Below, piece by piece: positions 294-51,353 of a stretch of 64,000 nucleotides of DNA. Within the stretch, counting starts at the first letter, position 1. Each line of letters opens with the position of its first letter. Under the pieces are notes generated by a model, which was not told the DNA's origin, made no database searches, and saw only the letters and a program-made list of their open reading frames with translations. The DNA lies in contig NZ_SNZH01000003.1 in the NCBI RefSeq assembly GCF_004363655.1, positions 1 through 64,000 of the forward strand, in the 5' to 3' direction. The DNA is from Tahibacter aquaticus (GTDB taxonomy: Bacteria > Pseudomonadota > Gammaproteobacteria > Xanthomonadales > Rhodanobacteraceae). The position numbers and the translations under genes are program-made.

Positions 294-1172
294 ATGCTGC
301 CGTCGATACGATTCGCCTGTGCTGCTGTCGTTCTTGTTGCATCCCCGGTCGCGCTTGCCCAGCAGGTCCAGTTCACGGCGGTGACCGGGTCGGCAACGCG
401 GCTTGCGCCAGGCGAAACCGGCACGCTGCGCTTACGCGTTCAATCGGAGTGGCCTGTCTGGGCGCGTGTCTATTCGGCGGATGCGGCAGATGGGGAATAC
501 GAGGTCAGTCGGGTCGGCGCGTCGGCGGGGTGTCCGGCGCTGGAGCCCCAGTCGTATGGAGCCAGCGTCACGTTCGACCCGACGGTAGCTGGCGGCGATC
601 TTGAGTGTGCCTATTCCGTTCATCGCGCCGGTTCTTCGATCAACGATCTGTCGGTCGACGTAACGCCCATGAACAGCAACGGATGGCCGGCCAGTGGCGG
701 TGTCGGACTGCGCTTCGGGGCTGTGCCCGATATGCGGCTTGATGTGCGGCAGGACTCAGTACGTTGGCTTCCGGATGGTCGCGCGCAGAACGAGCTGACG
801 ATCACGGTGCAGCAGTCGTCGACAGTAGCGCTATCGCAGGCCGCGGCGGGGTTCTGCCTGCTGATGCCTCTGCGCTTTGAGATGAGCGGAAGCCTTCGCA
901 ACGGTTGCGTTGGCCCTATGCCGGGCGGCGGTTTCTGCTTCAACGGTGGCTACCAGTTCCAGCTACCCGATATCCCGGTGCAGCAGGCCGTCACGTGCCG
1001 TGTGCAGTTGACGAGCAGGGAAGCCTATACAGCACCGCTGTACTACCCCATCAAATTCATCACGATGTCTATGCGGGATGCGGCAACCGGCGGACGGGTT
1101 TTGGCGCCGGAAGGCCCCTTCACCAATCTGGTGCTGGACATGGATCTGGTTTTCACCGGTCGGTTCGAGTGA
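294..1172 (+). CDS. Secreted protein of unknown function
   Basis: The product has 292 residues. I chose the ATG at 294 because it opens directly onto a signal peptide (MLPSIRFACAAVVLVASPVALAQQ, cleavage probably after ALA). The same frame is open upstream to 105, but that part is arginine-rich and does not look like protein. The mature part is rich in beta-strand patterns (for example TGTLRLRV and FEMSGSLRNGC) and has several cysteines that could form disulfides. It resembles the repeated extracellular DUF11-like or CARDB-like domains loosely, without a firm match. The C-terminus is DMDLVFTGRFE, similar to the IF-x-x-G-x-E tails of two other secreted proteins in this window. The role is unknown; export to the periplasm or beyond is well supported. 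Confidence 0.75.
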   Translation: MLPSIRFACAAVVLVASPVALAQQVQFTAVTGSATRLAPGETGTLRLRVQSEWPVWARVYSADAADGEYEVSRVGASAGCPALEPQSYGASVTFDPTVAGGDLECAYSVHRAGSSINDLSVDVTPMNSNGWPASGGVGLRFGAVPDMRLDVRQDSVRWLPDGRAQNELTITVQQSSTVALSQAAAGFCLLMPLRFEMSGSLRNGCVGPMPGGGFCFNGGYQFQLPDIPVQQAVTCRVQLTSREAYTAPLYYPIKFITMSMRDAATGGRVLAPEGPFTNLVLDMDLVFTGRFE

Positions 1173-8300: not shown

Positions 8301-11300
8301 CCGGTGAGCGTATCGTCGCCGCTGGTGCCGGTCAGCGTAACGGCATTGAGCCGGCCGATGACCGCTGCCGTCGTCCAGCTTTCCTGCGTGACGCCCTGGC
8401 TGTCCAGGAACTCGATGAATTTCACGGGCGACACGATCGTCTCATCCGACCAGTAGTTTTCGATCGTGATGCGATCGACGCTGTCGTTACCGATATCGAT
8501 CACCAGTGCATCGCCGACGCGTGACAGATGGACCTGTCCCGGTGCGACCGTTGCGTCAAAACGCAGTCTGGCTGTGCCTGCATTGCCTGATCCGACGATA
8601 GTGTCGTGTCCATCGCCGCGCGAAAAGACAAATGTCGCCGTGTTGCCGCTCAGCCGGTCATTGCCGCGGCCGCCCACCAGCAGGTCATTGCCACGCATGC
8701 TGATCAGTGTGTCATTGCCGTCACCGCCCAGCAGCTGGTCGTCGTCGTTGTAGTTGGTCCAGTTCAAGCGGTCGCTCAGTGTGTCGTTGCCGGCACCGCC
8801 GTCGAGGATATTCTGCGCGGTATTGCCGACCAGATCGTCGTTGCCGGACGTGCCGGTCAGCGACGAATTGCCCAGTGATTCGCCGAGGCGATACTGCTCG
8901 ATATGCGCGTAGAGCGACGCCGAGTACGACCCGGTGCCATCGCCTTCGTAGACCACGGTATCGCTGCCTTCGCCTGCCGATTCGACGACGACATCGCCCG
9001 CGCCGACCACGTAGGTGTCATTGCCAAGTCCACCGGTGAGCGTATTGGCGCCGGACGATGCAGAGCCATCCAGATGGTTGTCGAACCGGTTGCCCGTCGC
9101 CGTCGTGGCTTGGCTTCCGGTCAGCCGCACATTCTCCAGTTCGGAGCGGTCGGCAATGCTGTAGCTGAAACCGGTTTCGACGGTATCGATCGACGTGTAT
9201 CGCTGATCTTCGATGACCTGGTCGCTCGCGGAATCGAGCACGTAGGTATCGTTGGACACGCCGCCGATCAGGATGTCCGCTCCCGCGCCGCCATCCAGGC
9301 GGTAACCGCTGGGATACGCGCCACCGGCGCTGACATCGATGATGTTCGACAGGGAATTGCCGATGAAGGTCCGCGGCGTGGGGTAGTAGGTGTCGCCCCA
9401 TTCGGTTGCCACGAGATTTTCCACATTGTCTGCCAGGGCGATGTACAGGCTGTCGCTGTAGACCGTGTCGGTTCCGCCGCCCTCGAGTTCGATGACATTG
9501 CCCTGTCCGACATCGAAGTAGCGATCATCGCCGGCGCCGCCGGCAAAGGTGTTCGATGCGTTGCCGATAAAATCGTTCGACAGGCCATTGCCGTTGACCG
9601 TGGCACTGGTGCCGTCGCCGTAGAACTGGAGTTGTGGAGGTTCCGGCAGTGACAATGCTTCGATCTGTGCCGCCGTCAGCGTGCTGCCGTCGGCGAAGCG
9701 GATCAGGTCGACCGCCTGGTCTGTGGCGCCAGCCATCCAACCGGTCTGCACGTAGTTGCCGGTCGCATTGATGACGACAATCAGCGAGGAGGCCGAGCGG
9801 TAGAGCGTCACATCGCTCTGGTTGATGCCGCTGCCCAGTTCGAGCGTGTCGAAACCTGCGCCGTCCGCCGGGCCGCCATAGATGAAGTCACGTCCATCGC
9901 CCAGCCCGTAGCGGAAGACATCGTCGCCGGATCCGCCGTACAGCTTGTCCATGCCGGCGCCGCCGATCAGCAGGTCGTTGCCACCACCACCCCGCAAGGT
10001 GTCGTCGCCGCCACCGCCGTCGAAGGTGTCATTGCCACTGCCGCCCGCGAGGGTGTCGGCTCGCAACGTGCCCATGCGCGTCGCGAACATCGCACTCTGC
10101 GCCGGGCTCAGCACACTGCCGTCATCGAACAGGAATTCGATCGATGCCCCTTCCCGCGTGTTGAAGTTGACGATGGTCAGGCGGTCCGATCCGCTGTCGA
10201 TGACCAGGTCATTGCCGGCCAGGCTGAAGGAAAGCGACGACGCGCTGATCCCGGGAAGGAACCGGAGCACTGCCGTTTCTGACGGATGGCCGTGCTGCGC
10301 GAGATACCCCAGCGCTTCCGTCAGCTGCAGTTGATCGTGACCGAAACCCGCGCCAAAAACGTAGGTGTTCTGGCCCAGCCCGCCGATGAGCGTGTCGTTG
10401 CCTTCGCCACCCAGCAGCAGGTCGCTGGACGTCTCCTGGATCAGGCCGACACTCGCCGGAAAAAACCCACCGGCGTCCAGCACGTCATTGCCCGCACCGC
10501 CGAAGAGCTGGTCGACGCCATCCCCGCCACGCAGCGTGTCGTTGCCGTCTTCGCCGTAGAGGAAATCGTCGCCGCGCTGGCCATCGAGCGTATCGTCGCC
10601 GGTGCCGCCGAACAGGGCATCGTTGTCCGTGGCGGCTCCGGTGTAGTCGTTGTCCATGCCGCCGTAGAGCACATCGTTGCCGCTGCCGCCGATGAGAACG
10701 TCGTCACCCAGATCGCCGTTGAGCGTGTCCGCACCGGTTCCGGCCACGTAGACATCGTTCGATGCCGTGCCGACGCCACCGGAGGGCGGTGCGAAGCGCT
10801 GCAGCAGGCTGGCCGTGGTCCAGGCCGTGCCATCGGCGAACTCGATGCGATGATTCGCGTCCGTGCGGCTGAAGAACGCATCGAGCACCAGCGTGTTGGT
10901 GCCATCGGGGGTGCGCAGTACCAGGGCTCCCGTCGAATTGATGCTCACGAGCATCGTTGCCGGGTCTATGCCTGTGCCGAAGCGGATCGTATCGGCGCCG
11001 GCATGGGCCGCGCCCAGGCCCTGGATCGTGTCGTTGCCCCAGCCCTGGTCGAACAGGTACAGGTCATTGCCGCCGACACCGTCCATCACGTCGTCGCCGC
11101 GGCCACCTTCCAGTGTGTCGTTGCCGTCGGCCGCGTACAGGCTGTCGTTGCCGTCGTTGCCACGAAGAATGTCGTCGCCGGCATCGCCATCCAGCGTGTC
11201 GTTGCCGGCACCACCGTCCAGGGTGTCGTTGCCGTCGCTGCCATCGAGCGTGTCGTTGCCGTTGCCGCCTTCCAGGAAGTCGTCGCCGAGTTCGCCGCCG

Positions 11301-14227
11301 AGTAAATCGTCACCGTCTCCGCCCGACAGGGTGTCGTTGCCGATTCCGCCACTCAGCTCGTCTTCGCCGTCTCCGCCGCTCAGCTGGTCGTTGCCGGCCT
11401 CGCCAAACAGCTTGTCGTTGCCGGCATCGCCGTTGAGGGTATCGATGCCGTCATTGCCGCGGAGCCTGTCGTTGCCGCTGCCGCCGAACAGCGTGTCGTC
11501 GCCGTCGCCACCTTCGGCCTGGTCATCGTCGTCGCCTGCAGCGATGACATCGTCGCCTTTCTCACCCAGGATGATGTCGTTGCCGGCGTCGCCATTGAGG
11601 AAGTCGTTGCCGCCGTTGCCGGCGATCTGGTCGTTGCCCGATCCGCCATAGACGACGTCTTCGCCGTGCTCGGATTCGGCGAGGGAGTAGTGATCGCCGT
11701 TGATGATGTCGTTGCCCGCGTCGCCGTAGAGGGTGTCGTGTCCACCCATGCCGACGATGGCGTCGTTGCCATCGCCGCCGTGCAGTTCGTCATCGCCCTG
11801 CGCAGAGCCCGGCTGGCCCTGGGTCTGCGCCGTGTACAGATAGTCGCCCTGGAGGAAGTCATCGCCGGCATCACCCCAGACCCGGTCGTTGCCGGCACCA
11901 CCGATAACGGAGTCATTGCCTGCGCCGCCATTGATGGTGTCGTCATCCGGCACCAGCCCTTCGCGGTTGATCTCGTCATCGCCGTGAATGACATCGTCGC
12001 CCTCATCGCCGGAAATGCGGTCCTTGCCACCGCCGCCGATGATCAGGTCATTGCCAGCACCGCCATTCAGCGTGTCATTTCCATTGGCGCGCGCGCCGGC
12101 AGGAATAGGTGGATCGGCGCAGAGTTCCGCCAGATTCCCGTTCTGGAAGACGTTGTCCTTGTACGAGACATCGTCCACCTCGCGGTAGACGAGATCGCCG
12201 AGAATCAGATCATGGCCAGAGCCGCCGTCGATCACGTCGTCGTCATGCCCGCCGATCAGAAGGTCATTGTCGGCACCGCCGTCGATCAGGTCGTTGCCGT
12301 CGCCGGAGTACACGACGTCGGATCCGTCGCCCGCATCGATCCGGTCGCTCCCGCTTGCGAACACGCCGCTGACGCGTGTCGTCGCCGGGTCAGTGACGTA
12401 CAGGTTCAGCCGGTGCAGAAGATCACGCGCATCGTTGACAGGGGCATTGCCGCGTACACCGGCAATGAATCCGTAGCCGGCGGAGAAGTACGACGTGATG
12501 AGGTCCGGGGTCTGGTTGTCTTCGCGCCACCCGGTGATTAGTTCCAGCTGGTCGATGATTTCTTGATTGCCCGGCGTGGCGCCCGAGGCCGCACCGAAAT
12601 AGTCGTCTCGGCCACTGTCCAGGAGGATGTCGTTGCCGCTGCCGCCGCTGATGATGTCGTCGCCGGATCCTCCCTCGACCCAGTCATCGCCCGTGCCTGC
12701 ACGAATCCGGTCGTCTCCTGCACCGGCGTAGACCATGTCGTTGCCGTTGCCGGCGACGACGGCATTGTCGACGTCCCTGGATCGCAGGAACGCCAGTCGA
12801 TCCATCGGGTCGGAGAATATGACTGCCAAGTCCGCCTCAGAGGCAGACGACCAGATATCGTCGTTGTTGGTCAGCGTCGGCGTTGGCGTGGGCGGTGGGA
12901 TGATGGGGTCGCCAAATCCCGGCAACGTGATACCGAGTTCGCCGATGCTCCAGTCCTGGACCACGATCCGCGCGCCGGACTCGAGGTGGGTCAGGGTCAA
13001 GGTAACGCCCGATCCGCCATTGGCGGAAGCCAATACAGCAACGCCGATCTCGTTGACCCACGTACCCTCGCCCGTGCGTTCGAACGTCGTCAGCGACAGT
13101 GAATCACTGCCGATCCTCAAGCCGCCATCGCCATCGGAATCCTGGACGGTATCGACACTGCCATCAACGAAGTCGGCCAGATCGAACTCGTAGTTGTCGA
13201 AGCCGTCTCCACCTTTGAGTGTGTCGTTTCCTTCCCCGCCATAGAGAATATCGTTGCCGCTGTCGCCAACCAGCGTGTCGTCATCCTCGAAGCCGTGAAG
13301 GGTGTCGTTCCCTTCGCCTCCCCTGAGGAAATCCACGTTGCTTCCGCCGATCAGGTCGTCGTTACCTTTATCGCCGTAGAGGAACGTTCGTCCATTGAGA
13401 TTTCCGTCATAGACGTCTCTCTGCAAGATGTCGTTCTCAACGGTGCCGAAATTGATGTAGTCGTTCAGTGCAGGCAGGTGAGCACGTCCCCTCTCGCCGA
13501 TCGCCTCGGCGATCATCCGGGTGACTACGCGCTGGTGATCTCCGTACTCAAGCGGTTCTATCTGGAAAAGGTCTGTGTCGAAAACGACCGGGTAATTGTC
13601 TTCCAGCCAGGAATCCAACGGTTCAGTTACGTAAGCGGCAGCACAGCCAATCAGCACAGTCATGCCTGCGATAAAAGCGGCAGGTGCGCCCACCGCTGCG
13701 CCAGCCGCGGCAGCAATAGACCCGCCAATGATCGCCACAAACCCCATCATCATGGACGCGTAGGCGGCGGACAAGTCGCCCTCTGAGGCTTTCCACGCGG
13801 CAATACCCACAGTGGCGGCGCCGCCCAACGAGCGAGAAAGAGCCTTGCTCTCGATATGGATGATCCTGGCTCCTTCGAGAGCATCCCAATTTTTGGAGAC
13901 GTAAGAGAGGATCTTTGCCTTGTTCAACTCCAAATCCGCTTCAGGAATGAGCAGATTCAGGTCCTGCGCAATGGACTGTTTCCAGGTTGTAACAAGCGAA
14001 AGTAGCGTGGCGTCGCCGGTATCGCGAAATCTGTCCTCATAAAATTGGATGACATCCAGCTGCTTCTGCGTGACAGAGCGCATGATCTCCAGCATTTCGG
14101 CGGGTGGAATGTTGGTCGACTGAAACGTAAGCCCTCTGGAAACGAGCTCCTGTTGCTGAATGCTGCTGAGAACGGCCGCGATCTCGGAAGCCAGCATTAC
14201 GGCTTTCTTTTGCAAAGAATTTTCCAC
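5372..14227 (-). CDS. Giant RTX calcium-binding exoprotein
   Basis: The product has about 2,951 residues. I chose GTG 14227 because AAGGA lies 6 nt before it; TTG 14245 in the same frame is weaker. Residues 1-280 are helical and non-repetitive, with a hydrophobic, Ala/Gly-rich segment near 160-200 (GGSIAAAAGAAVGAPAAFIAG). From about 285 to 2617 the protein is a chain of RTX nonapeptides (GGxGNDxLx), which bind Ca2+ and fold after export. They are interrupted by HCBP-type linkers ending in 'IEFADGTxWTxxSL' motifs. Near 6.4-7.7 kb, five tandem modules of about 90 residues share NENL-LTGS-xx-GTGN-xL-NxLxGN. The last 334 residues are non-repetitive and may carry the type I signal. Exporter and adaptor genes lie just upstream on the same strand. 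A role in adhesion, S-layer or toxicity cannot be distinguished; no enzymatic domain was seen. Confidence 0.92.
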   Translation of the reverse strand: MENSLQKKAVMLASEIAAVLSSIQQQELVSRGLTFQSTNIPPAEMLEIMRSVTQKQLDVIQFYEDRFRDTGDATLLSLVTTWKQSIAQDLNLLIPEADLELNKAKILSYVSKNWDALEGARIIHIESKALSRSLGGAATVGIAAWKASEGDLSAAYASMMMGFVAIIGGSIAAAAGAAVGAPAAFIAGMTVLIGCAAAYVTEPLDSWLEDNYPVVFDTDLFQIEPLEYGDHQRVVTRMIAEAIGERGRAHLPALNDYINFGTVENDILQRDVYDGNLNGRTFLYGDKGNDDLIGGSNVDFLRGGEGNDTLHGFEDDDTLVGDSGNDILYGGEGNDTLKGGDGFDNYEFDLADFVDGSVDTVQDSDGDGGLRIGSDSLSLTTFERTGEGTWVNEIGVAVLASANGGSGVTLTLTHLESGARIVVQDWSIGELGITLPGFGDPIIPPPTPTPTLTNNDDIWSSASEADLAVIFSDPMDRLAFLRSRDVDNAVVAGNGNDMVYAGAGDDRIRAGTGDDWVEGGSGDDIISGGSGNDILLDSGRDDYFGAASGATPGNQEIIDQLELITGWREDNQTPDLITSYFSAGYGFIAGVRGNAPVNDARDLLHRLNLYVTDPATTRVSGVFASGSDRIDAGDGSDVVYSGDGNDLIDGGADNDLLIGGHDDDVIDGGSGHDLILGDLVYREVDDVSYKDNVFQNGNLAELCADPPIPAGARANGNDTLNGGAGNDLIIGGGGKDRISGDEGDDVIHGDDEINREGLVPDDDTINGGAGNDSVIGGAGNDRVWGDAGDDFLQGDYLYTAQTQGQPGSAQGDDELHGGDGNDAIVGMGGHDTLYGDAGNDIINGDHYSLAESEHGEDVVYGGSGNDQIAGNGGNDFLNGDAGNDIILGEKGDDVIAAGDDDDQAEGGDGDDTLFGGSGNDRLRGNDGIDTLNGDAGNDKLFGEAGNDQLSGGDGEDELSGGIGNDTLSGGDGDDLLGGELGDDFLEGGNGNDTLDGSDGNDTLDGGAGNDTLDGDAGDDILRGNDGNDSLYAADGNDTLEGGRGDDVMDGVGGNDLYLFDQGWGNDTIQGLGAAHAGADTIRFGTGIDPATMLVSINSTGALVLRTPDGTNTLVLDAFFSRTDANHRIEFADGTAWTTASLLQRFAPPSGGVGTASNDVYVAGTGADTLNGDLGDDVLIGGSGNDVLYGGMDNDYTGAATDNDALFGGTGDDTLDGQRGDDFLYGEDGNDTLRGGDGVDQLFGGAGNDVLDAGGFFPASVGLIQETSSDLLLGGEGNDTLIGGLGQNTYVFGAGFGHDQLQLTEALGYLAQHGHPSETAVLRFLPGISASSLSFSLAGNDLVIDSGSDRLTIVNFNTREGASIEFLFDDGSVLSPAQSAMFATRMGTLRADTLAGGSGNDTFDGGGGDDTLRGGGGNDLLIGGAGMDKLYGGSGDDVFRYGLGDGRDFIYGGPADGAGFDTLELGSGINQSDVTLYRSASSLIVVINATGNYVQTGWMAGATDQAVDLIRFADGSTLTAAQIEALSLPEPPQLQFYGDGTSATVNGNGLSNDFIGNASNTFAGGAGDDRYFDVGQGNVIELEGGGTDTVYSDSLYIALADNVENLVATEWGDTYYPTPRTFIGNSLSNIIDVSAGGAYPSGYRLDGGAGADILIGGVSNDTYVLDSASDQVIEDQRYTSIDTVETGFSYSIADRSELENVRLTGSQATTATGNRFDNHLDGSASSGANTLTGGLGNDTYVVGAGDVVVESAGEGSDTVVYEGDGTGSYSASLYAHIEQYRLGESLGNSSLTGTSGNDDLVGNTAQNILDGGAGNDTLSDRLNWTNYNDDDQLLGGDGNDTLISMRGNDLLVGGRGNDRLSGNTATFVFSRGDGHDTIVGSGNAGTARLRFDATVAPGQVHLSRVGDALVIDIGNDSVDRITIENYWSDETIVSPVKFIEFLDSQGVTQESWTTAAVIGRLNAVTLTGTSGDDTLTGGSGYDTLLGNGGNDRLEGGAGDDTLDGGAGNDTHVFNGDFGSDRVLGLDAASSGIDVIQLDAPYTAGNVSWQINENDDLILTSFNGSTVGTVTLVGFMRAGAPAHEVRLSDGTVWTSASIRAQALTTTPGDDYVNGFGSDDTIDGLAGNDVILGNGGNDTLRGGDGADEVYGGVGNDHLYGDAGDDSLSGNDGSDIVEGGAGNDTYYVNDALDLLVENAASGTDSVYATVDHTLAANIERLYLVDSAVRGTGNTLANRIEGNELNNVLDGGAGADTLIGGAGDDTYVVDATSDVVTESTGNGIDTIQTSVTLPTLAANVENLTLTGSNAINGTGNSLANTLTGNAANNTLNGGSGADTLSGGAGDDIYVVDVIGDTVNELANEGSDTVQAGFNYTLAANVENLSLTGSGNVTGTGNALNNQLSGNSGNNTLTGDAGNDTLNGGAGTDTLIGGTGDDTYTVDSTTDTLTELAGEGTDTVSSSVTFDLTSRNNIENLTLTGSNAINGTGNSLDNVLTGNSGNNTLNGGLGNDVLDGGLGNDTLAGGAGDDTYHVNVSTDVINEANDSGTDTVNAAVSFNLSLTANQYIENVTLTGTAGNSATGNALANTLVGNSGANAISAGAGNDILDGGTGADTLTGGTGNDSYRMARGHGIDTVIETDSTAGNYDIARFLSGVAYDQLWFSRPSGSNNLEISIIGTTDKLVIKDWYLGTQYRAEEIQVADGNRYLLAADVQTLVNAMAGMTPPPAGQTTLTTAQRDALTAAFTSAWKTGSGMSSADEVTVSAETRAAAKPLHVQDSAALTHGPGAKEGQGDPAPLSGNVIDPAAPISGDSIRERPVSAALWNGEFRVHDGFDAGSADAANARSAPVRATITNDDRGQHRGRDASMADRAPIYREGRRPLAALDTAMDTSTDRRRPMECGEAPWAPFITKPLLENAPVASHCQRLIDLMALSPGGAGALDMRPITSYPSPDTWVA

Positions 14228-14521
14228 GACATTTCCTTCTATCAATTAGTGTGTGTGACGGTTTTCCGCTTTGCCGAGCCGTCATTCTTCTCCGGACGTC
14301 GGAGCGCGGTTCTCATGAAGCGGTTGCCATTCCGGCGGTCTGGTGAATTTCGGATGTCATGGGGCAGCATCGGCGCCTATCAGCACTGCCAATAATTGCT
14401 CACACAATGGATCTGCAGCCGCATTCACCGGGTGGGGCTCACAGGAAACAGCTTTTCTTTTCCCTTGCTCGAGCGAGCACTGTTGTGGCGCTGCGGCCAG
14501 ACTTCGTCTTGGTGTCGTGCA

Positions 14522-26237: not shown

Positions 26238-28925
26238 ATGATTCATCGTAGAAACCTGCTCGCCCTGAGCATCGTCACTGCACTGAGCTTCTACGGCGTG
26301 GCGCACGCCGAAACCGCGGCGACCACCGCGACGGAAAATGCCGTCAATACTGACGCAGCCGGCCCGGCCGGCACCGCGCAGGAGCTGGAGGAAGTCGTCG
26401 TCAAGGGCATCCGCCAAAGCCTCAAGGCCTCGCTGGATACCAAGCGCGAAGCCGATGCGGTGGTCGAGTCGATCACGGCCGAGGACATCGGCAAGTTCCC
26501 CAACACCAACGTCGCCGAGGCGATGGCGCAGATTCCGGGCGTCACCATCGACCGCCGCTTCGGCCAGGGCGAGCGCGTCAGCATCGACGGCACCGATCCT
26601 TCGCTCAACCTGTCGTTCATCGACGGCCACCCGGTGGCGCAGTCGATCTGGCTGTACGGCGAGCAGCCCAATCGCGGCTTCGACTTCACCCTGATTGCGC
26701 CGGAAATCCTCGGCCGCCTGGAAATCTACAAGTCGCCCGAAGCGCGCCTGCCGGAAGGTTCCATCGGCGGCACCATCCTGATGCATACGCGCAAGCCGCT
26801 GGATCTGGAAAAGAACACGCTGAGCGGCTCGGTCGGCTACAGCTACAGCGAGCAGGCGTCCAAGGGCAAGCCCAACGCCTCGCTGCTGTACAGCGTGAAG
26901 AACGACGCGGAAACCTTCGGCCTGGCCATCGCCGCGCAGCATTACGAAGAGCAGGTCGACCGCCAGGGTATCGAGATCTTCGGCTACGTGCCGGCGTCGA
27001 CCTTCGCCAACGCCACCGGCGTATCGCCGACGACGATGGTGCCGAACTCGGTCAATGCGGCCTGGTTCCAGCAGACACGCAAGCGCAACAGCGCTGTGGT
27101 CAACCTGGAATTCAAGCCGAGCGACCAGCTCCATATCAACCTGAACGGCATGTACATTCGGGAAAATTTCAACAATTACAACCAGTCGGTATACAGCTTC
27201 ACCACCTGGCTGCCGAGCACGGTGGCGGCGGTGGACCGTCTCGGCGACGTGCGCGGCGGCGTGGCCCAGAGCGGCCATTCCAATGCCAACGGCGGCGCGG
27301 TGATCTACGACAACCAGGCACGCGAGTCGGAAGTCACGACCAAGGGCCTGGACCTGAACGCGAAGTACTCCGGCGATGGCTGGGACCTGGGCGGCCAGAT
27401 CGGCCGTTCCAAGTCGGAAAACCCGAACATCACCCAGTGGTTCATCGAACCGGTGTATTTCGGCGGCTTCAGCTGGAATACGCGCACCGGCGTGACCTTC
27501 GACGACCCGACCGCCGCACGCAATCCGGCCAACTGGCGCGATGCGGGCTGGATGGGCAACCGCGGCATCTTCTCCTCGGAAGGCGAAGACACCTACGGCC
27601 AGCTCGATTTCAGCAAGAGCTTCGACGGCATATTCCATCAGCTGCAGCTGGGCTATCGCCACAACAAGCATGAAGAGTCCTACGGCCTGGCCGTGTACGG
27701 CGGCGTGCGCCTGGGTTCGCTGGCCGACGTGGGCACCATCGGCTATGCCGACACCATGGACGCGTTCAACGGTTTCTCCAGCGGCCACGGCCAGCACATC
27801 TATGTCGGCCGCGACAACGTGATCCGCTGGGTCAGCGGCTCGCCGATCAACTACGCGGCGCCGGACCCGGGCTCGACCATCAACAACACCTGGGCGCTGG
27901 ACCAGACCACCGACGCGTTCTACGCCCAGCTGAACTTCCAGACCGACGGCAATTTCCACGGTAACTTCGGCCTGCGCTACGTCGATACCGAAACCAATGC
28001 CACGGGCTACAACCCGGGTGGCGCGGCGCCGGTGCTGCCGGCACCGGTGTCCTGGTGGCAGACCAAGACCAGCCAGTACGACAAGGTGCTGCCCTCGTTC
28101 AACCTGATCTACGACGTGGCGCCCGACGTGGTGCTGCGCTTCACCGGTGCGGAAGTCATCGCCTGGGCGCCGTACAACCAGATGGTGAACAACACCTTCC
28201 TCAACGATTCCACCCAGACCGGCGCCGGCGGCAATGCCGACCTGGGTCCGTACGAGTCGAAGAATTTCAACTTGTCGGCAGAGTGGTATTTTGCTGAATC
28301 GTCGGTGCTGGCGGCCTCGGTGTTCTACAAGGACGTGTCCAACTACATCGACCGCGTGGCGCGCATCGAACGCCAGTACAACTCGATCCGCGACAACAAC
28401 CCGGACCAGTGGGGCGGCATGGTCGGTTTCCGCGGCTGTACTGCCGACGGTTTCTGCGACTACAGCATCAGCCGTCCGTACAACGCCGGCAGCGCGACGA
28501 TCAAGGGCTTCAACCTGAACTACCAGCAGCCGTTCTCCGACACCGGCTTCGGCGTGGTCGCCAACTACACCTTTGCCGACGGCGAGACCGACCAGGGCAA
28601 TGCGATGCCGTACCAGTCGAAGAACTCGCTGACGGTGAGCCCGTATTACGAGAAGGGCCCGCTCAGCGTGCGCATCAACTACAACTACCGCAGCAAGTAC
28701 CTCGCCGGCGGTTACGTAGCGGGTGCGGCACCGGCCAGCGTCGACGACTACACCGAAATCGGCGCCACCTTCGGCTGGAACTTCACCGAGCACCTGGGCA
28801 TGACCTTCGACGCGTCGAACCTGACCGACGAAAAGTACACCCAGTACCTCGGCACCAAGGACTACATGGCTGGCCAGTACTCCACCGGCCGCCGCTACAT
28901 GCTGACCCTGCGCGCGAACTTCTGA
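26238..28925 (+). CDS. TonB-dependent receptor, oligosaccharide type
   Basis: The product has 895 residues. The ATG has a strong ribosome site (GGGAAGGGGAAC). The signal peptide is MIHRRNLLALSIVTALSFYG-VAHA. A TonB-box-like stretch (ELEEVVVKG, near residue 52) precedes the plug domain (GIRQSLKASLDTKREADAVV; IGKFPNTNVAEAMAQIPGV; ERVSIDGTDPSLNLSFIDG). The 22-strand barrel ends YSTGRRYMLTLRANF, with the terminal Phe required for outer-membrane assembly. The plug is of the type seen in Caulobacter/Xanthomonas receptors for plant and chitin sugars. It lies between the kinase and hexosaminidase genes, so uptake of chito-oligosaccharides across the outer membrane is the likely job. A clear terminator follows the gene. 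Confidence 0.93.
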   Translation: MIHRRNLLALSIVTALSFYGVAHAETAATTATENAVNTDAAGPAGTAQELEEVVVKGIRQSLKASLDTKREADAVVESITAEDIGKFPNTNVAEAMAQIPGVTIDRRFGQGERVSIDGTDPSLNLSFIDGHPVAQSIWLYGEQPNRGFDFTLIAPEILGRLEIYKSPEARLPEGSIGGTILMHTRKPLDLEKNTLSGSVGYSYSEQASKGKPNASLLYSVKNDAETFGLAIAAQHYEEQVDRQGIEIFGYVPASTFANATGVSPTTMVPNSVNAAWFQQTRKRNSAVVNLEFKPSDQLHINLNGMYIRENFNNYNQSVYSFTTWLPSTVAAVDRLGDVRGGVAQSGHSNANGGAVIYDNQARESEVTTKGLDLNAKYSGDGWDLGGQIGRSKSENPNITQWFIEPVYFGGFSWNTRTGVTFDDPTAARNPANWRDAGWMGNRGIFSSEGEDTYGQLDFSKSFDGIFHQLQLGYRHNKHEESYGLAVYGGVRLGSLADVGTIGYADTMDAFNGFSSGHGQHIYVGRDNVIRWVSGSPINYAAPDPGSTINNTWALDQTTDAFYAQLNFQTDGNFHGNFGLRYVDTETNATGYNPGGAAPVLPAPVSWWQTKTSQYDKVLPSFNLIYDVAPDVVLRFTGAEVIAWAPYNQMVNNTFLNDSTQTGAGGNADLGPYESKNFNLSAEWYFAESSVLAASVFYKDVSNYIDRVARIERQYNSIRDNNPDQWGGMVGFRGCTADGFCDYSISRPYNAGSATIKGFNLNYQQPFSDTGFGVVANYTFADGETDQGNAMPYQSKNSLTVSPYYEKGPLSVRINYNYRSKYLAGGYVAGAAPASVDDYTEIGATFGWNFTEHLGMTFDASNLTDEKYTQYLGTKDYMAGQYSTGRRYMLTLRANF

Positions 28926-29162: not shown

Positions 29163-31505
29163 ATGATGTCCTTGCGCAGATCGGTTTTCCTTGCTGCCGC
29201 CGCGACCCTGCTGGCCGCGTGCGCGCACAGTCCCGACAAGCCGGCGGCCGTGGCCAAGGCCGGCGCCGACAGCGTGACGCTGGATTCGATCGTGCCCCTG
29301 CCGGCGCGCGTGCAGCCCGCGGCCAAGCCCGCGACCGTGCGCGTCGATGCAGCGACACCGCTACAGGCCTGCGGCGAACCGGCCCAGGCGGCAGCGCAGT
29401 ATTTCGTCGAACTACTGGCGCGCACGCGCCAATGGAATTTGGTTTCGGGCTGCGTGGACAAGCCTGCCGACGGCATCCGCTTTGTGCTCGACGCGGCCGC
29501 CACGACGGCCGACGAGGGCTATAGCCTCAGCGTACAGGCCGGCGTCATCGACGTGCGCGCGCGCAGCGAGGCCGGGCTGTTCTACGGTGCGGTGTCGCTG
29601 TGGCAGCTCATCAGCGCGCGCGACGACGCGGCAGTGGAACTGCAGGCCGGCCGCATCGACGATGCGCCGCGCTATGTCTGGCGCGGGCTGATGCTGGATT
29701 CGGCGCGTCACTACCAGCCGCCGGCCTTCATCGAAAAACTCATCGATGCGATGGCGCTGCACAAACTCAACACCTTGCACTGGCACCTGACCGACGACCA
29801 GGGCTGGCGCATTGAGATCAAGAAATACCCGCGCCTGACCGAGGTTGGCGCCTGGCGCGTGCCGCCCGGCCCGGCCGCGGCCAAGGACATCGACGCGGCC
29901 ACCGGCAAGCCCCGCCTGTACGGCGGCTTCTATACCCAGGACGAGATCCGTCATCTGGTCGCTTACGCGGCGCAGCGCCATATCACCATCGTGCCGGAGA
30001 TCGACATGCCCGGCCATGCGCAGGCGGCCATCGCGGCGTATCCCAAGCTCGGCACCGGCGACAAGCCCAAGGTGTCGGTGGACTGGGGCGTGCATACCTA
30101 TTTGCTGAATGTGGACGAATCCACTTTCGAGTTCATCGACGGCGTGCTCGACGAAGTGGTCGACCTGTTTCCCTCGACATACATCCATATCGGCGGCGAC
30201 GAGGCGGCCAAGGACCGCTGGGCCGCCTCGAAAAGCGTGCAGGCCAAGCGGCGCAAGCTGGGTCTTGCCGACGATGCGGCGCTGCAGTCCTGGTTTGTGC
30301 ACCGGCTGGAGCAGTCGCTGGAGCGGCACGGGCGCAAGCTGATCGGCTGGGACGAGATCCTCGAAGGCGGCAAGCTGCCGGAAAGCGCCAGCGTCATGTC
30401 CTGGCGCGGCACCAAGGGCGCGATCGATGCCGCCCGTGCCGGCCACGACGTGGTGCTGTCGCCGTCGCCGGACCTGTACATCAACAACCTGCAGAGCGAT
30501 GCGCCGGACGAACCGCCGGGCCGCTACGACGCGGTGGTGACGCTGGAGAAGCTCTACGGCTTCGAGCCCACGCCGGCCGAACTCGATGCGCAGCAGGCGC
30601 GCCACGTGCTGGGCGCGCAGGCGAATCTCTGGGTCGAGCACATCCGTACGACCGAGCGGGTAGAGCATGCGGTGTTCCCGCGCCTGGCCGCGCTGGCCGA
30701 GGTCGACTGGAGCCCGCGCGAACGGCGCGACTGGAACGGTTTCCTGCAGCGCCTGCCGGCGCAGCTGCGGCGGTACCGCAGCCTTGGCATCGACTACGCC
30801 GATTCGGCCTTCGCCGTGCGTGCCGCGGTGCAGACCGACGCGCAGGCGGCCGATGCCGTGACGGTGACCCTGGCGAACCAGACCGGCTTCGGCAGCATCC
30901 GCTATACCCGCGACGGCAGCACGCCGCAGGCGGATTCGCCGGCCTATACCGCGCCGCTGCAACTGCCGTTGGGAACGACGCTGCAGGCGACGGCCTTTGC
31001 CGGCAGCCAGGCGCTGGGCAAGCCCCTGCAGCTGAGCCTGGACGCGAGCACGCTGCGCCGCCGTAGCAGCGGCGAGCTGAAACCCTGCCGCGACAACGGC
31101 CTAGTGCTGCGCCTGGAAGACGACGCGCCGCTGCAGGGTCTGCGCAAGTTCTATAGCGTGGACATTTTCGATGCCTGCTGGATCTGGCCGCAGGCGCCGC
31201 TGGCCGGTGCGCGCGAGATCGCCATCGATGTCGGCAGCATTCCGTACAATTTCCAGTTGTGGCATGACATCAAGCACGTCAAGCGGCGCAAGCCGGCCAC
31301 GGCCCAGGGCGAGCTGGAAATCCGCCGCGGCAGCTGCGAGGGCAAGCCCTGGCTGCGGCTGCCCTTGAAACCGGCGCTGGGCAACCCCACGACCACCACG
31401 CTGCGCGCCACGCTGCCGGAAGGCCTGGCCGCGCAGGATCTTTGTTTCGTGTTCACGCGGCCGGATACCCGGACGCTCTGGACGATCGACGCCGTGCAGC
31501 TGTAA
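29163..31505 (+). CDS. GH20 beta-N-acetylhexosaminidase lipoprotein
   Basis: The product has 780 residues. GTG 29157 is followed by three ATG codons in a row; I chose 29163, 5 nt after GAGG. A lipoprotein signal with lipobox LAAC gives anchoring in the periplasm or outer membrane. The GH20b domain (about 40-165) precedes the catalytic barrel: YVWRGLMLDSARHYQPP; LNTLHWHLTDDQGWRIEIK; HIGGDEAAKDRW, where Asp-Glu near 346-347 is the catalytic pair; and WDEILEGG. The C-terminal region (about 560-780) has a chitobiase-type FN3-like fold (RYTRDGSTPQADSPAYT). It cleaves terminal GlcNAc from chito-oligosaccharides, giving substrate for the permease and kinase. It lies after the receptor terminator, so it has its own promoter. 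Confidence 0.95.
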   Translation: MMSLRRSVFLAAAATLLAACAHSPDKPAAVAKAGADSVTLDSIVPLPARVQPAAKPATVRVDAATPLQACGEPAQAAAQYFVELLARTRQWNLVSGCVDKPADGIRFVLDAAATTADEGYSLSVQAGVIDVRARSEAGLFYGAVSLWQLISARDDAAVELQAGRIDDAPRYVWRGLMLDSARHYQPPAFIEKLIDAMALHKLNTLHWHLTDDQGWRIEIKKYPRLTEVGAWRVPPGPAAAKDIDAATGKPRLYGGFYTQDEIRHLVAYAAQRHITIVPEIDMPGHAQAAIAAYPKLGTGDKPKVSVDWGVHTYLLNVDESTFEFIDGVLDEVVDLFPSTYIHIGGDEAAKDRWAASKSVQAKRRKLGLADDAALQSWFVHRLEQSLERHGRKLIGWDEILEGGKLPESASVMSWRGTKGAIDAARAGHDVVLSPSPDLYINNLQSDAPDEPPGRYDAVVTLEKLYGFEPTPAELDAQQARHVLGAQANLWVEHIRTTERVEHAVFPRLAALAEVDWSPRERRDWNGFLQRLPAQLRRYRSLGIDYADSAFAVRAAVQTDAQAADAVTVTLANQTGFGSIRYTRDGSTPQADSPAYTAPLQLPLGTTLQATAFAGSQALGKPLQLSLDASTLRRRSSGELKPCRDNGLVLRLEDDAPLQGLRKFYSVDIFDACWIWPQAPLAGAREIAIDVGSIPYNFQLWHDIKHVKRRKPATAQGELEIRRGSCEGKPWLRLPLKPALGNPTTTTLRATLPEGLAAQDLCFVFTRPDTRTLWTIDAVQL

Positions 31506-34157: not shown

Positions 34158-35231
34158 TCATTCGTGCCCGTCCAGGAAGATCGTGTCCGCACTGACCGCG
34201 GTACGCGCGCACTGGTAGGTTTCGGCGATGCGCGGGCCGGTGTCGATGATCTGGAAGTCGCTGGCCAGTACGTCCTGGGCGTTCGGGGTCTGGTCGAACA
34301 CGCGCGAGCCGATGCCGAGTTCGGCCCAGCTGTGCGTGGTATAGCGGTCGCTTTCCGCCGTCAGCGCGATATTGCCGCCGTCGGCCAGCACGATGCCGTA
34401 GCGCTGCATGGTGCGCAGGATCACCTGCGCGGCAGCCGAGTAACCGGTCATGGGGAAATCCGCGCGCAGGCGCAGGCGCGAGCCGTAGGGCACGCTGCCG
34501 GCCGGACCGCTGGGCCCGCCCGCATGCGTGGCCGGGCGCACGTATAGCTTGCCTTCGTCGCCGCCCAGGGAAATATCGCTGGCCATGCGGGCATTCGGCA
34601 GGATGAAACGCAGCGCATGGCCGATGTCGCCGTCGGGCAGCTGCATCGCCGCATGCACTTCGTCGGCGTTGAACAGCAGCGGTGCGATCGGAAAACCGGC
34701 CGCGTCGGCGCTGGTGCAGTGATCGCCGCGGCCGGTGCCCGGATAGTTGGTACGCAGATGCCATTTGACCAGGCACTGTGCTTCCAGCGAGCCGCTGCCG
34801 CTGGCGGTGACGTGATAGGCCTCGAACACGGTGTCGCCCTGCACCACGAGCAGATGGCAGTCGTCGTTCTCGTTGTCGCAGGTCAGTCCGCTGTTGCCTT
34901 CGATGGCCGCATTCGCCGGCACTGGCATGCTGCTGCCCAGCGGCTCGCAGTCGGGGCTGTAATAGTCGTCGTAGGGATAGTCGACGATGCTGCGCGTGGG
35001 GCTGCCCGCCGCGGCGCGCACCACGTTCATGGCGAAATCGATCTGCAGCCGGCCGAAGCCGAAGCCGCCCAGGCCGGACAGCGTGGCGATCATGTCGGCG
35101 GACTGTGGATGCAGCGCCGCGCCGGCGATGTTGCGGTTCCAGGTGGAACTGGGCGGAAAGCGCGGCAGCGTCTCGGCGCTGGCGACGCTGGCGCAGGCCG
35201 CGAGTGTGGCGATCAGAAACAGGCGTTGCAT
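34158..35231 (-). CDS. Secreted protein of unknown function with IF-x-x-G tail
   Basis: The product has 357 residues. The ATG at 35231 follows GGGGGA and opens a signal peptide (MQRLFLIATLAACASVASAE). The mature protein starts TLPRFPPSSTWNRNIAGAAL. Its beta-rich patterns (GFGFGRLQIDFAMNVVRAA; CDNENDDCHLLVVQGDTVFE) and paired Cys suggest an extracellular beta-sandwich or jelly-roll fold. Part of it (SMPVPANAAIEGNSGLTCDN) resembles exported proteins annotated as hypothetical in other bacteria, without known function. The C-terminus is SADTIFLDGHE, which belongs with the IF-x-x-G-F-E-like tails of two other secreted proteins here. It lies alone on the minus strand between two reductase genes. 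Confidence 0.72.
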   Translation of the reverse strand: MQRLFLIATLAACASVASAETLPRFPPSSTWNRNIAGAALHPQSADMIATLSGLGGFGFGRLQIDFAMNVVRAAAGSPTRSIVDYPYDDYYSPDCEPLGSSMPVPANAAIEGNSGLTCDNENDDCHLLVVQGDTVFEAYHVTASGSGSLEAQCLVKWHLRTNYPGTGRGDHCTSADAAGFPIAPLLFNADEVHAAMQLPDGDIGHALRFILPNARMASDISLGGDEGKLYVRPATHAGGPSGPAGSVPYGSRLRLRADFPMTGYSAAAQVILRTMQRYGIVLADGGNIALTAESDRYTTHSWAELGIGSRVFDQTPNAQDVLASDFQIIDTGPRIAETYQCARTAVSADTIFLDGHE

Positions 35232-48464: not shown

Positions 48465-51353
48465 ATGTCGAATACCGTACTGAGCTGGCGCGCACTAGGC
48501 GCGCTGGCGAGCTTGTTGTTGTTGCCGGCCTTGCCGGTGCTGGCTTCGCACGAAGAGGCCAAGCACATCGAAGACCTGATGGACGGTGGCGAGCACAAGG
48601 AAGGCGAGGAGCACAAGGAAGGCGAAGGCCGCGAGGAATCCTGGCAGATCGAACAGCGCCAGATCTGGTTCGAACGCACGCGCACGCTGCGTAGCACCCC
48701 TGATGCAGGCCGCGAGCGTGCCGCCGCAGTGGAGGCCCTGAAGGTGCAGCGTGCGCACAACGATGCGTCGCGCAGCGCGACCGGCGAGGTGTGGAGCCCG
48801 GTCGGCCCCTCGTCCATGAGCATGACCGACTGGATCATGGGCAAGGTCGCCGGCCGCGTGAACGCCGTCACACCGGTGCCGGGCAATGAAGACACGGTCT
48901 ATATCGGCAGCGCCGCGGGCGGTGTCTGGAAGACCACCAATGCGGGCGGCAGCTGGACGCCGGTCTTCGACCAGGTCGGCACCCTGCCGATCGGTGCGGT
49001 GACGCTGGGCCCGAACGACAGCAACGATGTCTGGGTCGGTACCGGCGACAAGAACGGCGGCGGCTGCGCCGGTTATTTCGGCCAGGGCGTGTATCTGAGC
49101 GAAGACGCCGGCGCGACCTGGACAGCCCGCAACGGCGCCGGTGCGACGGCGATGCCGCTGTCCATCGTCAATGCCGTGGCGGTGCAACCGACCGACAGCA
49201 ATGTGATCCTTGCCGGCGGTGCGGGCACCTGCGGCGCCACTGGCGCGCTCAGCGGCGCAGGCGTGTTCCGCTCCAGCGACCGCGGCCTGACCTGGACCCG
49301 CGTGCTCAGCACCAATGTGGAAGACATCATTTTTGTACCGGGCACCAGCACGGTATATGCGGGCCTGATCAATACCGGCGTATCCAAATCGACCGACGGC
49401 GGCGTCACCTGGACCTCGGTAAGCACGGGCTTGAATTCGGCCGGTTCGCGCCTGCGTCTGTCGATGGCGCCCAGCGACGTGAATACCCTGTACGCCCTGA
49501 TCGGTACACGCCTGTACCGCACCACCGACGGCGGCACCAGCTGGACGCAGACCAACACTGCCGCCTGCGAAGGCCAGTGCACCTACAACCTGACCATCGC
49601 CGTGCATCCGACCGATCCGGCTACGGTGCTGGTCGGCACCATCCGCCACTTCCGCTCCACCGCCGGCGGCGCCAGCCTGACGGCGATGACCAGCACCTGG
49701 GGCACGTCGCAGAAAGTCCACCAGGATACGCACGTCGTGCGCTATTCGCAGAGCAATCCGAACCGCTTCTGGGTCGGCACCGACGGTGGCCTGTGGCGCA
49801 CGGACGACGGCGGTTTGTCGTACGTGAACATGAATTCCAATCTCAATATCACCCAGTTCTACGACATTGCCGTGCATCCGAACGACGTCAATATCGTGTT
49901 CGGCGGTGCCCAGGACAACGGCTCTTCGGGCCGCCGCACCAGCCTGCAATGGGGCCTGACTTTCCCCAGCGGCGACGGCTTCATGAATGCGGTCGATCCG
50001 ACCACGCCCTCGCGCGTGTTCCAGACCAGCTACCCGTCCAGCAATCTGCCCAACATCGTGCGCTCCAACGACAGCGGCAGCCTGGGCAGCTTTGCGATGG
50101 TGCCGCGTACCGGCATGGTGGCATCCAGCACCTTCCCCTGGGTCACGCCGATGGCGGTAGCCGGCAACCTGCTGTTCGCCTCGTCCAATACGCTGTATCG
50201 CACGACGACCGACGGCAGCAGCTGGACGGCCGTATCGCCGAACATGGGCAGTGCCGCCTCGGTGGTGACGCCACAGCTGATCGGCGTGCTGATGCCGACC
50301 TATGTCGGCACTTCCGGTGGCCGCGTGTATTTCAGCCCGGACGCGTCCATCCCCACGCCCACCTTTACCAATGTGACCGGCGACTACCCGGGCGGCATCG
50401 TCTCCGACGTGGCGATGGACCCGATCAATGCGCAGCGCGTGTTCATCACGCGCTCGGGCTTCGGCGCTTCGCGCCTGTACCGCTCCACCACCGGCGGCAC
50501 CACCTGGGCGGCGGTCGGTACCGGCTTGCCGAACGTGCCGGCGAACAGCGTCGTGGTCGATCCGCTGAATACCAATCGGATCTTCGTCGCCACCGACATC
50601 GGTGTCTACGAAAGTACTGATGGTGGCGACAATTTCAGTGCCTATTCCGCCGGCCTGCCGCTGGGCCTGATCGTGAGCGATCTGGAAATCGACGATTCGC
50701 CGCACGTACTCACCGCCGGCAGCTACAGCCGTGGCGCCTGGCGCGTGGTACTGAGCGCCGCGTCCAATGCGCCGCCGACGCCGGATTTCACCGCCAGCAC
50801 GAGCGATCTCACCGCGACGTTCACCAGCAGCTCTATCGACCTGGACGGCACCATTGCCAGCTACAGCTGGAACTTCGGCGACGGCAGTCCGGCCGCGGCC
50901 ACGGCCAACCCCAGCCACACCTATGCGGCCTACGGCGCCTATTCCGTGGTGCTGAGCGTGACCGACGACGACGGCGCCAGCGCCAGCTTCTCGCGCGTGG
51001 TGCGTTTCTTCGCGCCGCCGACGCCGCTGACCAACGGCGTGACCGTCGCTGGCCTGAGCGCCGCGCAGAACGACGAGCTGCGCTTCAGCCTGGTGGTGCC
51101 GGCTGGTGCGACCAACCTGGTGTTCAACACGGTCGGTGCGGCCGGCGAAGACGCGGACCTGACCATCAAGCTGGGCGAGGAAACCATCTGCGAATCGGCC
51201 GGTGCGACGGCGAACGAATCCTGCACCACGCCGGCACCGGCGCCGGGTACGTATGTCGCCATCGTGCTCGCCTATTCGCCGCTGACCAACCAGTCGATCA
51301 CCGGCAGCTACACCGTGTCGGACGTGATCTTTGCCAACGGCTTCCAGCCGTAA
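48465..51353 (+). CDS. Secreted BNR/VPS10-type beta-propeller protein with PKD and PPC-like domains
   Basis: The product has 962 residues. A signal peptide (MSNTVLSWRALGALASLLLL) precedes a His/Glu/Lys-rich stretch (GGEHKEGEEHKEGEGREESW) that may bind metal. From about 110 to 765 repeated BNR/sialidase-like blades occur (AAGGVWKTTNAGGSWTPVF; GVYLSEDAGATWTA; RLYRTTDGGTSWTQ; RLYRSTTGGTTWAAV), forming one or two propellers as in VPS10-type exoglucanases. A PKD domain (about 770-850; PTPDFTASTSDLTATFTSSS, GSPAAATANPSHTY) and a PPC-like domain (about 860-950) follow. The C-terminus is VSDVIFANGFQP. A role as extracellular glycan-binding or hydrolysing protein is likely; no sialidase Arg triad was identified. 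A strong terminator follows. Confidence 0.88.
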   Translation: MSNTVLSWRALGALASLLLLPALPVLASHEEAKHIEDLMDGGEHKEGEEHKEGEGREESWQIEQRQIWFERTRTLRSTPDAGRERAAAVEALKVQRAHNDASRSATGEVWSPVGPSSMSMTDWIMGKVAGRVNAVTPVPGNEDTVYIGSAAGGVWKTTNAGGSWTPVFDQVGTLPIGAVTLGPNDSNDVWVGTGDKNGGGCAGYFGQGVYLSEDAGATWTARNGAGATAMPLSIVNAVAVQPTDSNVILAGGAGTCGATGALSGAGVFRSSDRGLTWTRVLSTNVEDIIFVPGTSTVYAGLINTGVSKSTDGGVTWTSVSTGLNSAGSRLRLSMAPSDVNTLYALIGTRLYRTTDGGTSWTQTNTAACEGQCTYNLTIAVHPTDPATVLVGTIRHFRSTAGGASLTAMTSTWGTSQKVHQDTHVVRYSQSNPNRFWVGTDGGLWRTDDGGLSYVNMNSNLNITQFYDIAVHPNDVNIVFGGAQDNGSSGRRTSLQWGLTFPSGDGFMNAVDPTTPSRVFQTSYPSSNLPNIVRSNDSGSLGSFAMVPRTGMVASSTFPWVTPMAVAGNLLFASSNTLYRTTTDGSSWTAVSPNMGSAASVVTPQLIGVLMPTYVGTSGGRVYFSPDASIPTPTFTNVTGDYPGGIVSDVAMDPINAQRVFITRSGFGASRLYRSTTGGTTWAAVGTGLPNVPANSVVVDPLNTNRIFVATDIGVYESTDGGDNFSAYSAGLPLGLIVSDLEIDDSPHVLTAGSYSRGAWRVVLSAASNAPPTPDFTASTSDLTATFTSSSIDLDGTIASYSWNFGDGSPAAATANPSHTYAAYGAYSVVLSVTDDDGASASFSRVVRFFAPPTPLTNGVTVAGLSAAQNDELRFSLVVPAGATNLVFNTVGAAGEDADLTIKLGEETICESAGATANESCTTPAPAPGTYVAIVLAYSPLTNQSITGSYTVSDVIFANGFQP

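Follow-up and report, generated by a model that had tools for sequence, protein, structure and literature searches.

A C-terminal tail on exported proteins of the Lysobacterales tracks one clade of type II secretion systems

The first 64 kb of contig 3 in the 7.27 Mb genome of Tahibacter aquaticus (the window hereafter, meaning this whole stretch of DNA) encode three proteins with signal-peptide-like starts that end in similar short C-terminal tails. What is this tail, how widely is it distributed and which machinery could read it? A sequence-only reading of the window had drawn attention to these ends and proposed a sorting, anchoring or processing tag comparable to PEP-CTERM but lacking a transmembrane helix. 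All three proteins exist with the ends given there. The longest (962 residues; 48465-51353, plus strand) combines Sortilin/BNR repeats, a PKD domain and a weak PPC match that lies under the Pfam cut-off, and ends in VSDVIFANGFQP (51315-51350, plus strand). The second (357 residues; 34158-35231) ends in SADTIFLDGHE (34161-34193); its gene is on the minus strand, which had not been stated, and the plus-strand reading of the interval contains a stop. The third (292 residues; 294-1172, plus strand, with a possible alternative start at 105) ends in DMDLVFTGRFE (1137-1169, plus strand). The latter two proteins have no Pfam or NCBIfam match, and neither database holds a model that matched the tail itself in any of the three. 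SADTIFLDGHE alone fits [IMV]F..G.E-stop strictly, with His replacing Phe, while the 294-1172 tail has Arg at the usual Gly position (VF-T-G-R-F-E) and the 48465-51353 tail has Gln replacing Glu and one additional residue (end GFQP). A single-sequence AlphaFold2 model of the last 214 residues of the 48465-51353 protein was uninformative (mean predicted local distance difference test score 41.5).

The tail is real and occurs far beyond chance. In the T. aquaticus genome, [IMV]F..G.E-TRR, whose TRR end admits TGG besides stop codons, has nine matches (one ending in TGG), and [ILMV]F.[DN].FE-TRR has nine that partly overlap them; neither pattern has a match when reversed. Among this genome and 60 relatives, [IMV]F..G[FY]E-TRR matches 28 of 61 genomes, with up to 32 matches per genome and one reversed hit overall. 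Across 220 genomes of the Lysobacterales (Xanthomonadales), [IMV]F-x-[DN]-G-[FY]-E-stop yields 910 hits in 89 genomes against two for the reversed pattern. The earlier observation was right, and the phenomenon is larger than had been noted. Outside the order but within the class, [IMV]F..G[FY]E matches 46 of 271 genomes, at most twice each; the 50 hits compare with about 38 reversed ones (counted by hand), which is background level. Among the orders sampled in the class, the tail is thus above background only in this one. A scan of named genomes returned at least 117 stretches with the pattern, of which 22 have titles clearly outside the order and appear chance-like; two are titled Thermoanaerobaculia and others bear the order name, its genera or broad names such as Proteobacteria. 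Tail genera among the matches listed are Tahibacter, Dokdonella, Chiayiivirga, Aquimonas, Pseudofulvimonas, Wenzhouxiangella, Marinicella, Rudaea and Lysobacter, together with one Xanthomonas metagenome-assembled genome. The metagenome-assembled genome labelled Thermoanaerobaculia (L060, with two hits, and L131) represents either a mis-binned Lysobacterales contig or an occurrence of the tag beyond the order. Haloarchaeal contigs (L042, L045, L047 and L139) also match the DNA pattern; they share a family of about 362 residues, with one member ending in FRFEDGFE, and are apparently a chance likeness within that family. Among the literature matches listed, no title or abstract opening describes the tail.

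The form of the tail was defined from 140 non-redundant tail proteins, the set left after clustering at 45% identity, and has the consensus D-x-[IV]-F-x-[DN]-G-F-E-COOH. Selection fixed F, G, [FYWLH] and [EDQ], and also [DN] in loci from the named-genome scan; the upstream Asp, the residue following it, x and, within three residues, the point at which the protein ends were left free. The last motif residue is the exact C-terminus in 128 of 140 proteins, with the remainder ending at most three residues further on, and Asp stands two residues ahead of [IV] in 70 of 140. Asp or Asn precedes Gly in 163 of 199 hits from the seven richest genomes of the 61-genome set (G039, G040, G044, G047, G050, G051 and G056, at least 26 hits each), in a search that left this position free. 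Sequence information is low upstream of the Asp, the patterned stretch stops abruptly at the C-terminus and no transmembrane segment follows it. Ser, Asp, Asn or Arg can replace Gly. In genus g35 of family f10, an Arg dialect, IFxDRFE, makes up 34 of the 39 wide-pattern hits listed for that genus, where six more were counted; the 294-1172 tail is of this form. Codons vary from copy to copy, which indicates that the peptide and not the DNA is conserved. In one tail gene (L019) the C-terminus carries the motif twice in tandem, AVFQDGFEGARTGVVFADGFE.

Judged from their sequences, tail proteins are unrelated and mostly exported. Signal-peptide-like starts occur in 86 of 105 untruncated tail frames versus 268 of 560 other genes (P 5e-11), as called by a loose, crude home-made heuristic that over-calls, given its 268 positive controls. 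For this comparison, 22 of 117 loci clearly outside the order were removed, and L060, L131 and loci with Proteobacteria-only titles were kept. A stricter score (at least 25) retains 64 of 105 tail frames versus 164 of 560 other genes, and within the window and the 20-kb regions the counts are 31 of 38 tail genes versus 116 of 277 others. The association with exported proteins that had been proposed for the tail is borne out by these counts. Two of the 140 proteins (haloarchaeal L042) were removed before family matching, which left 138 C-terminal regions. These were matched at E values up to 0.01, not at curated cut-offs, and the best 25 of 83 and of 109 families were considered. They include choice_anch_Q (22), choice_anch_J (3), choice_anch_D (2), rhombosortase-dependent M36 (5), myxosortase-dependent M36 (5, probably the same proteins), rhombotarget A (5) and ExeM/NucH nucleases (3), in addition to beta-helices, propeller repeats, FG-GAP repeats, S8 and M36 peptidases and EEP nucleases. 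Several of the matched domains presumably carry GlyGly-CTERM, MYXO-CTERM, type IX secretion system (T9SS) or LPXTG ends in other lineages, going by their NCBIfam names. The tail occupies the slot where other lineages put C-terminal anchors.

This range of cargo bears directly on a further explanation, in which the tail would be nothing more than a usual final beta-strand, or the inherited end of one domain family, with no recognition function. Several tail proteins do share families, but 140 remain after clustering at 45% identity, with many unrelated folds and little upstream conservation, and the tail is missing in nearly all genomes of most of families f1 and f2. A tail found after beta-helices and propellers as well as after S8 and M36 peptidases and EEP nucleases is not the last strand of one fold. 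The beta-sandwich objection that had been raised beforehand thus failed, and this explanation, already contradicted, is very improbable. In its form the tail is a new kind of sorting-type signal. As the sequence-only reading had suggested, it is located on otherwise unrelated exported proteins, at their extreme C-terminus, and lacks a transmembrane helix.

The partner of such a signal was sought by profiling exosortase, the domain PF03934 and GspD/GspC against tail occurrence. Processing by a PEP-CTERM/exosortase-like system had been the obvious comparison, and exosortase is indeed commoner with the tail: it is above cut-off in 15 of 28 tail-positive versus 4 of 33 tail-negative genomes. It is nevertheless below cut-off in the other 13 tail-positive genomes, including the tail-rich G044, G050 and G056, and has no match in the T. 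aquaticus genome. Exosortase was therefore rejected as the tail partner and is refuted as a general explanation; the tail also has neither the transmembrane helix nor the basic end of PEP-CTERM, and this is the least probable of the explanations weighed here. PF03934 (T2SSK) was discarded as a marker of the type II secretion system (T2SS), since its 63-position model is non-specific, with matches in all 61 genomes and in 7 of 14 controls. Inspection by eye of 95 same-strand neighbours of tail genes revealed no common partner. ECF-sigma-like proteins (about 190 residues) and large kinase-like proteins (about 900 residues) recur beside tail genes or the type A locus described below, also by eye (L038, L046, L072, L081, L107, L154, L156, L166 and L202), and are possibly a shared regulator. 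The suggestion that a co-occurring protease or membrane protein could be found by phylogenetic profile failed for exosortase, the only sortase family searched, and succeeded for a secretion system: the best partner found is a T2SS and not a sortase.

Two GspD secretins above the TIGR02517 cut-off occur in all 16 tail-positive genomes tested first; tail-negative genomes, among the matches listed, mostly have one. A GspD tree of 68 rows, from which the duplicate loci L168 and L179 were excluded, separates two old groups, type A and type B. The type A clade of the order (29 rows; Shimodaira-Hasegawa-like approximate likelihood ratio test support 97) includes every tail-positive genome with an A-type row in the tree, and type B rows lie outside it. 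It also holds six genomes that lack the strict tail (G052, G365, G380, G341, G334 and G045), all of which except G380 have tails of the wider pattern. Distant A-like secretins (G343, G057, G362 and G031) branch outside the clade and their genomes have no tail hits. Type B is Xps-like, with the gene order E-F-...-D as in Xps (by eye); it is commoner, is present in most genomes tested, tail-positive and tail-negative alike, and does not track the tail.

A profile of type A GspD extended the association to the same 220 genomes in which tails had been counted. Two or more tails, by one pattern or the other, are present in 83 of 106 A-positive versus 9 of 114 A-negative genomes (Fisher 3e-28, uncorrected for relatedness). 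For genomes lacking a wide-pattern test, only strict-pattern hits entered the count; ten genomes with divergent Xcs-like secretins, as well as G356 (type B, E 5.6e-67), were counted as A-negative, and G409, G422, G446, G460, G470 and G504 as A-positive on fragment matches alone. By genus, 31 have both features, 31 neither, five type A only and two tails only, so that 62 of 69 are concordant; five of the seven discordant genera are in family f8. Within f1, tails occur in all six A-positive genomes and are absent from 31 of 33 A-negative ones. Among the 40 genomes of f2, none but the lone A-positive one (Chiayiivirga flava) has two or more tails. G054, in f9, has neither a GspD match nor a tail. 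Joint loss of the tail and type A appears to be repeated, in core f1, in most of f2 (where Chiayiivirga keeps both), in G054 of f9 and in most of f8. Apparent exceptions in genus g35 mostly carry the Arg dialect. The tail tracks one T2SS clade, type A, and this association is newly found.

The type A locus was examined in nine 20-kb regions, in all of which gspC, gspD and gspE lie together; four of the regions also contain gspF, and in two it is adjacent. In T. aquaticus the locus is outside the window, with gspC at G000:C18:51281-52228 (GspC profile) and gspD at G000:C18:52267-54279 (GspD-A profile). Genes for rho, trxA and a DEAD-box helicase (identified by eye) directly adjoin gspCDE in four of the nine regions and some are a few genes away in two more, which suggests vertical descent. 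The locus belongs to a T2SS by its GspD, above the curated TIGR02517 cut-off, and by its GspC, which has a T2SSC (HR) domain (PF11356, 65 to 119 bits) in all eight proteins scanned. A C-terminal PDZ domain is also found in all eight, above a PDZ gathering score in five; in the only GspC of type B that was scanned, T2SSC matches weakly and PDZ gives no hit. Where GspC was searched, it co-occurs with the tail as GspD does. Tail-like genes lie close to type A gspCDE in two of the nine regions (G036 and G011; L200 and L202) and end in VIFANGFQ and IIFRYGHE. Permease-like genes with 10 to 12 predicted transmembrane segments lie between gspE and gspF of type A in L198 and L199 (G000 and G022).

We propose that the tail, acting as a linear signal at the C-terminus, recruits its proteins to the type A T2SS (gspC-gspD-gspE, in some cases with gspF close by). 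Tail proteins would leave the cytoplasm by their N-terminal signal peptide and fold in the periplasm. The type A machine would then bind the exposed tail, most probably through the PDZ domain in which its GspC ends, and would pass the folded cargo through its secretin, either out of the cell or onto the cell surface. C-terminal peptides are common PDZ ligands. The tag, its place at the very C-terminus, its range of unrelated exported proteins and its co-occurrence with type A are observed; transport of tail proteins by type A and reading of the tail by a PDZ domain are inferred, with different confidence. That the tail is a recruitment signal for type A is probable. A more tentative suggestion, which may well prove wrong, is that the GspC-A PDZ domain binds the free carboxyl ends of these unrelated folded proteins, dozens in number, and delivers them to the type A secretin, and that tail and reader have changed in concert to give dialects (Arg in place of Gly in one genus). 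The reader could alternatively be the N0 domain of GspD-A or a separate adaptor.

Several observations weigh against this proposal. G394 and G464 (f8) have four and two tails, respectively, and neither GspD-A nor GspC-A. At least two tails are also found in seven fragmented or incomplete A-negative genomes (G351, G361, G413, G418, G471, G475 and G501; completeness 73 to 96%). Among these, GspC-A is present in G418, G501 was outside the GspC search and the other five have PDZ-length hits only. Another 15 A-negative genomes have one tail hit each. Conversely, 11 A-positive genomes have no tail by either pattern, seven in f10 and four in f8 (G380, G387, G421, G433, G449, G451, G469, G476, G490, G497 and G508). 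The co-loss is based on few independent events and other genes may have the same profile. No pseudopilin (GspG-K), gspL or gspM gene was seen by eye in the nine 20-kb type A regions; genes for these pseudopilin and platform components may lie elsewhere or be shared with type B. No clear residue compensating for the Arg dialect is apparent in the GspC PDZ alignment, in which phylogeny is a confounder. Canonical PDZ ligands have a hydrophobic last residue and not Glu, and to our knowledge no such tail is used in V. cholerae or Dickeya. PDZ-bearing GspC proteins occur in both (PMC11981180).

Two other readers of the tail have to be weighed against type A. The tail could be a surface-retention or attachment tag, read after export by an order-specific receptor or transpeptidase, with type A either sharing its history or carrying the proteins without reading the tail. 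Anchor-type domains among the cargo (choice_anch_Q/J/D, rhombosortase- and myxosortase-dependent M36 and rhombotarget A, at E values up to 0.01) and the abrupt end of the patterned stretch fit such a role. Yet no receptor or transpeptidase candidate was seen by eye among the 95 same-strand neighbours, no transmembrane segment is present to hold a precursor for a membrane sortase, and a PDZ-bearing GspC is already available as a reader; we regard a retention tag as rather unlikely. The tail could also mark proteins for C-terminal processing or quality control by a PDZ-bearing protease or chaperone of the periplasm (Prc/DegQ-like), with no part in secretion. A short tail with a free carboxyl end suits PDZ readers, and the GspC profile matched 56 of 56 genomes; most of these matches score below 40 bits, are confined to the PDZ part and lie in longer frames, possibly genes of such proteases. 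PDZ-only matches also occur in tail-negative genomes, however, and thus leave the presence/absence pattern of the tail unexplained; the tail is, moreover, above background only in this order. A protease signal is accordingly improbable, and recruitment by type A remains the preferred explanation.

Comparison with known systems indicates what is new in the tail. PEP-CTERM and MYXO-CTERM tags carry a transmembrane segment and are paired with a membrane protease. PEP-CTERM/exosortase and MYXO-CTERM/myxosortase resemble the tail in being C-terminal, lineage-restricted tags on many substrates per genome. The tail differs from the former in having no Pro-Glu-Pro, transmembrane helix or basic end, and exosortase is not in every tail genome; it differs from the latter in having no Cys in its consensus and no transmembrane segment following. 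The C-terminal sorting domains of the T9SS in Bacteroidota are also signals for an outer-membrane secretion machine with similar cargo types, but they are whole folded domains, unlike the nine-residue tail. No T9SS sorting model was among the best 25 of 83 families for the 138 C-termini; T9SS genes, including SprA, were not searched. GlyGly-CTERM/rhombosortase is a further C-terminal tag on Sec-exported proteins with T2SS export, exemplified by VesB and the EpsC PDZ domain of V. cholerae (PMC12369372), and some tail proteins match M36, RbtA and SVAGG models named for rhombosortase/GlyGly-CTERM (E up to 0.01). The tail lacks the transmembrane helix and Gly-rich cleavage site of that tag. VesB is reported to be the one known substrate with a full requirement for the EpsC PDZ domain, and its PDZ-dependent information resides in an Ig fold and not in a linear tail (PMC12369372). 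The Xps-type T2SS (type B) belongs to the same GspD family as type A; the GspC of Xanthomonas (XpsC, formerly XpsN) is described as having a helix in place of PDZ (PMC11981180). For the Out T2SS of Dickeya/Pectobacterium, a nine-residue loop in Dickeya is reported to interact with GspC and GspD (PMC7949064); loop 3 of PelI lies inside the proteins of a single enzyme family and so differs from a terminal tag on unrelated proteins. A terminal linear tag read by GspC-A would, by analogy, be a simpler version of the Dickeya loop interaction.

The window contains two further features relevant to export and uptake. A giant RTX protein is encoded at 5372-14245 (minus strand) by an open reading frame of 2957 residues, in which RTX calcium-binding repeats (PF00353) form 26 stretches and an HCBP_related domain is also present; its product probably takes a type I secretion route. 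A TonB-dependent receptor (26238-28925, plus strand) adjoins a GH20 beta-hexosaminidase with a chitobiase C-terminal domain (29166-31505, plus strand), and the pair is perhaps a locus for chitin/N-acetylglucosamine uptake.

The tail bears on how the T2SS chooses its cargo. T2SS substrates are stated to lack a linear universal signal, and the GspC PDZ domain to be required for a subset of them (PMC12369372); the tail hypothesis is directly testable because a linear signal is said to be absent. The Lysobacterales offer a tag that can be read from sequence and is tied to a PDZ-bearing system, beside a second system in the same cells that does not track it, which would allow a direct test of cargo choice. 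If the proposal is true, part of the secretome would become predictable for a whole bacterial order, and the tail would perhaps provide a nine-residue label for folded-protein export.

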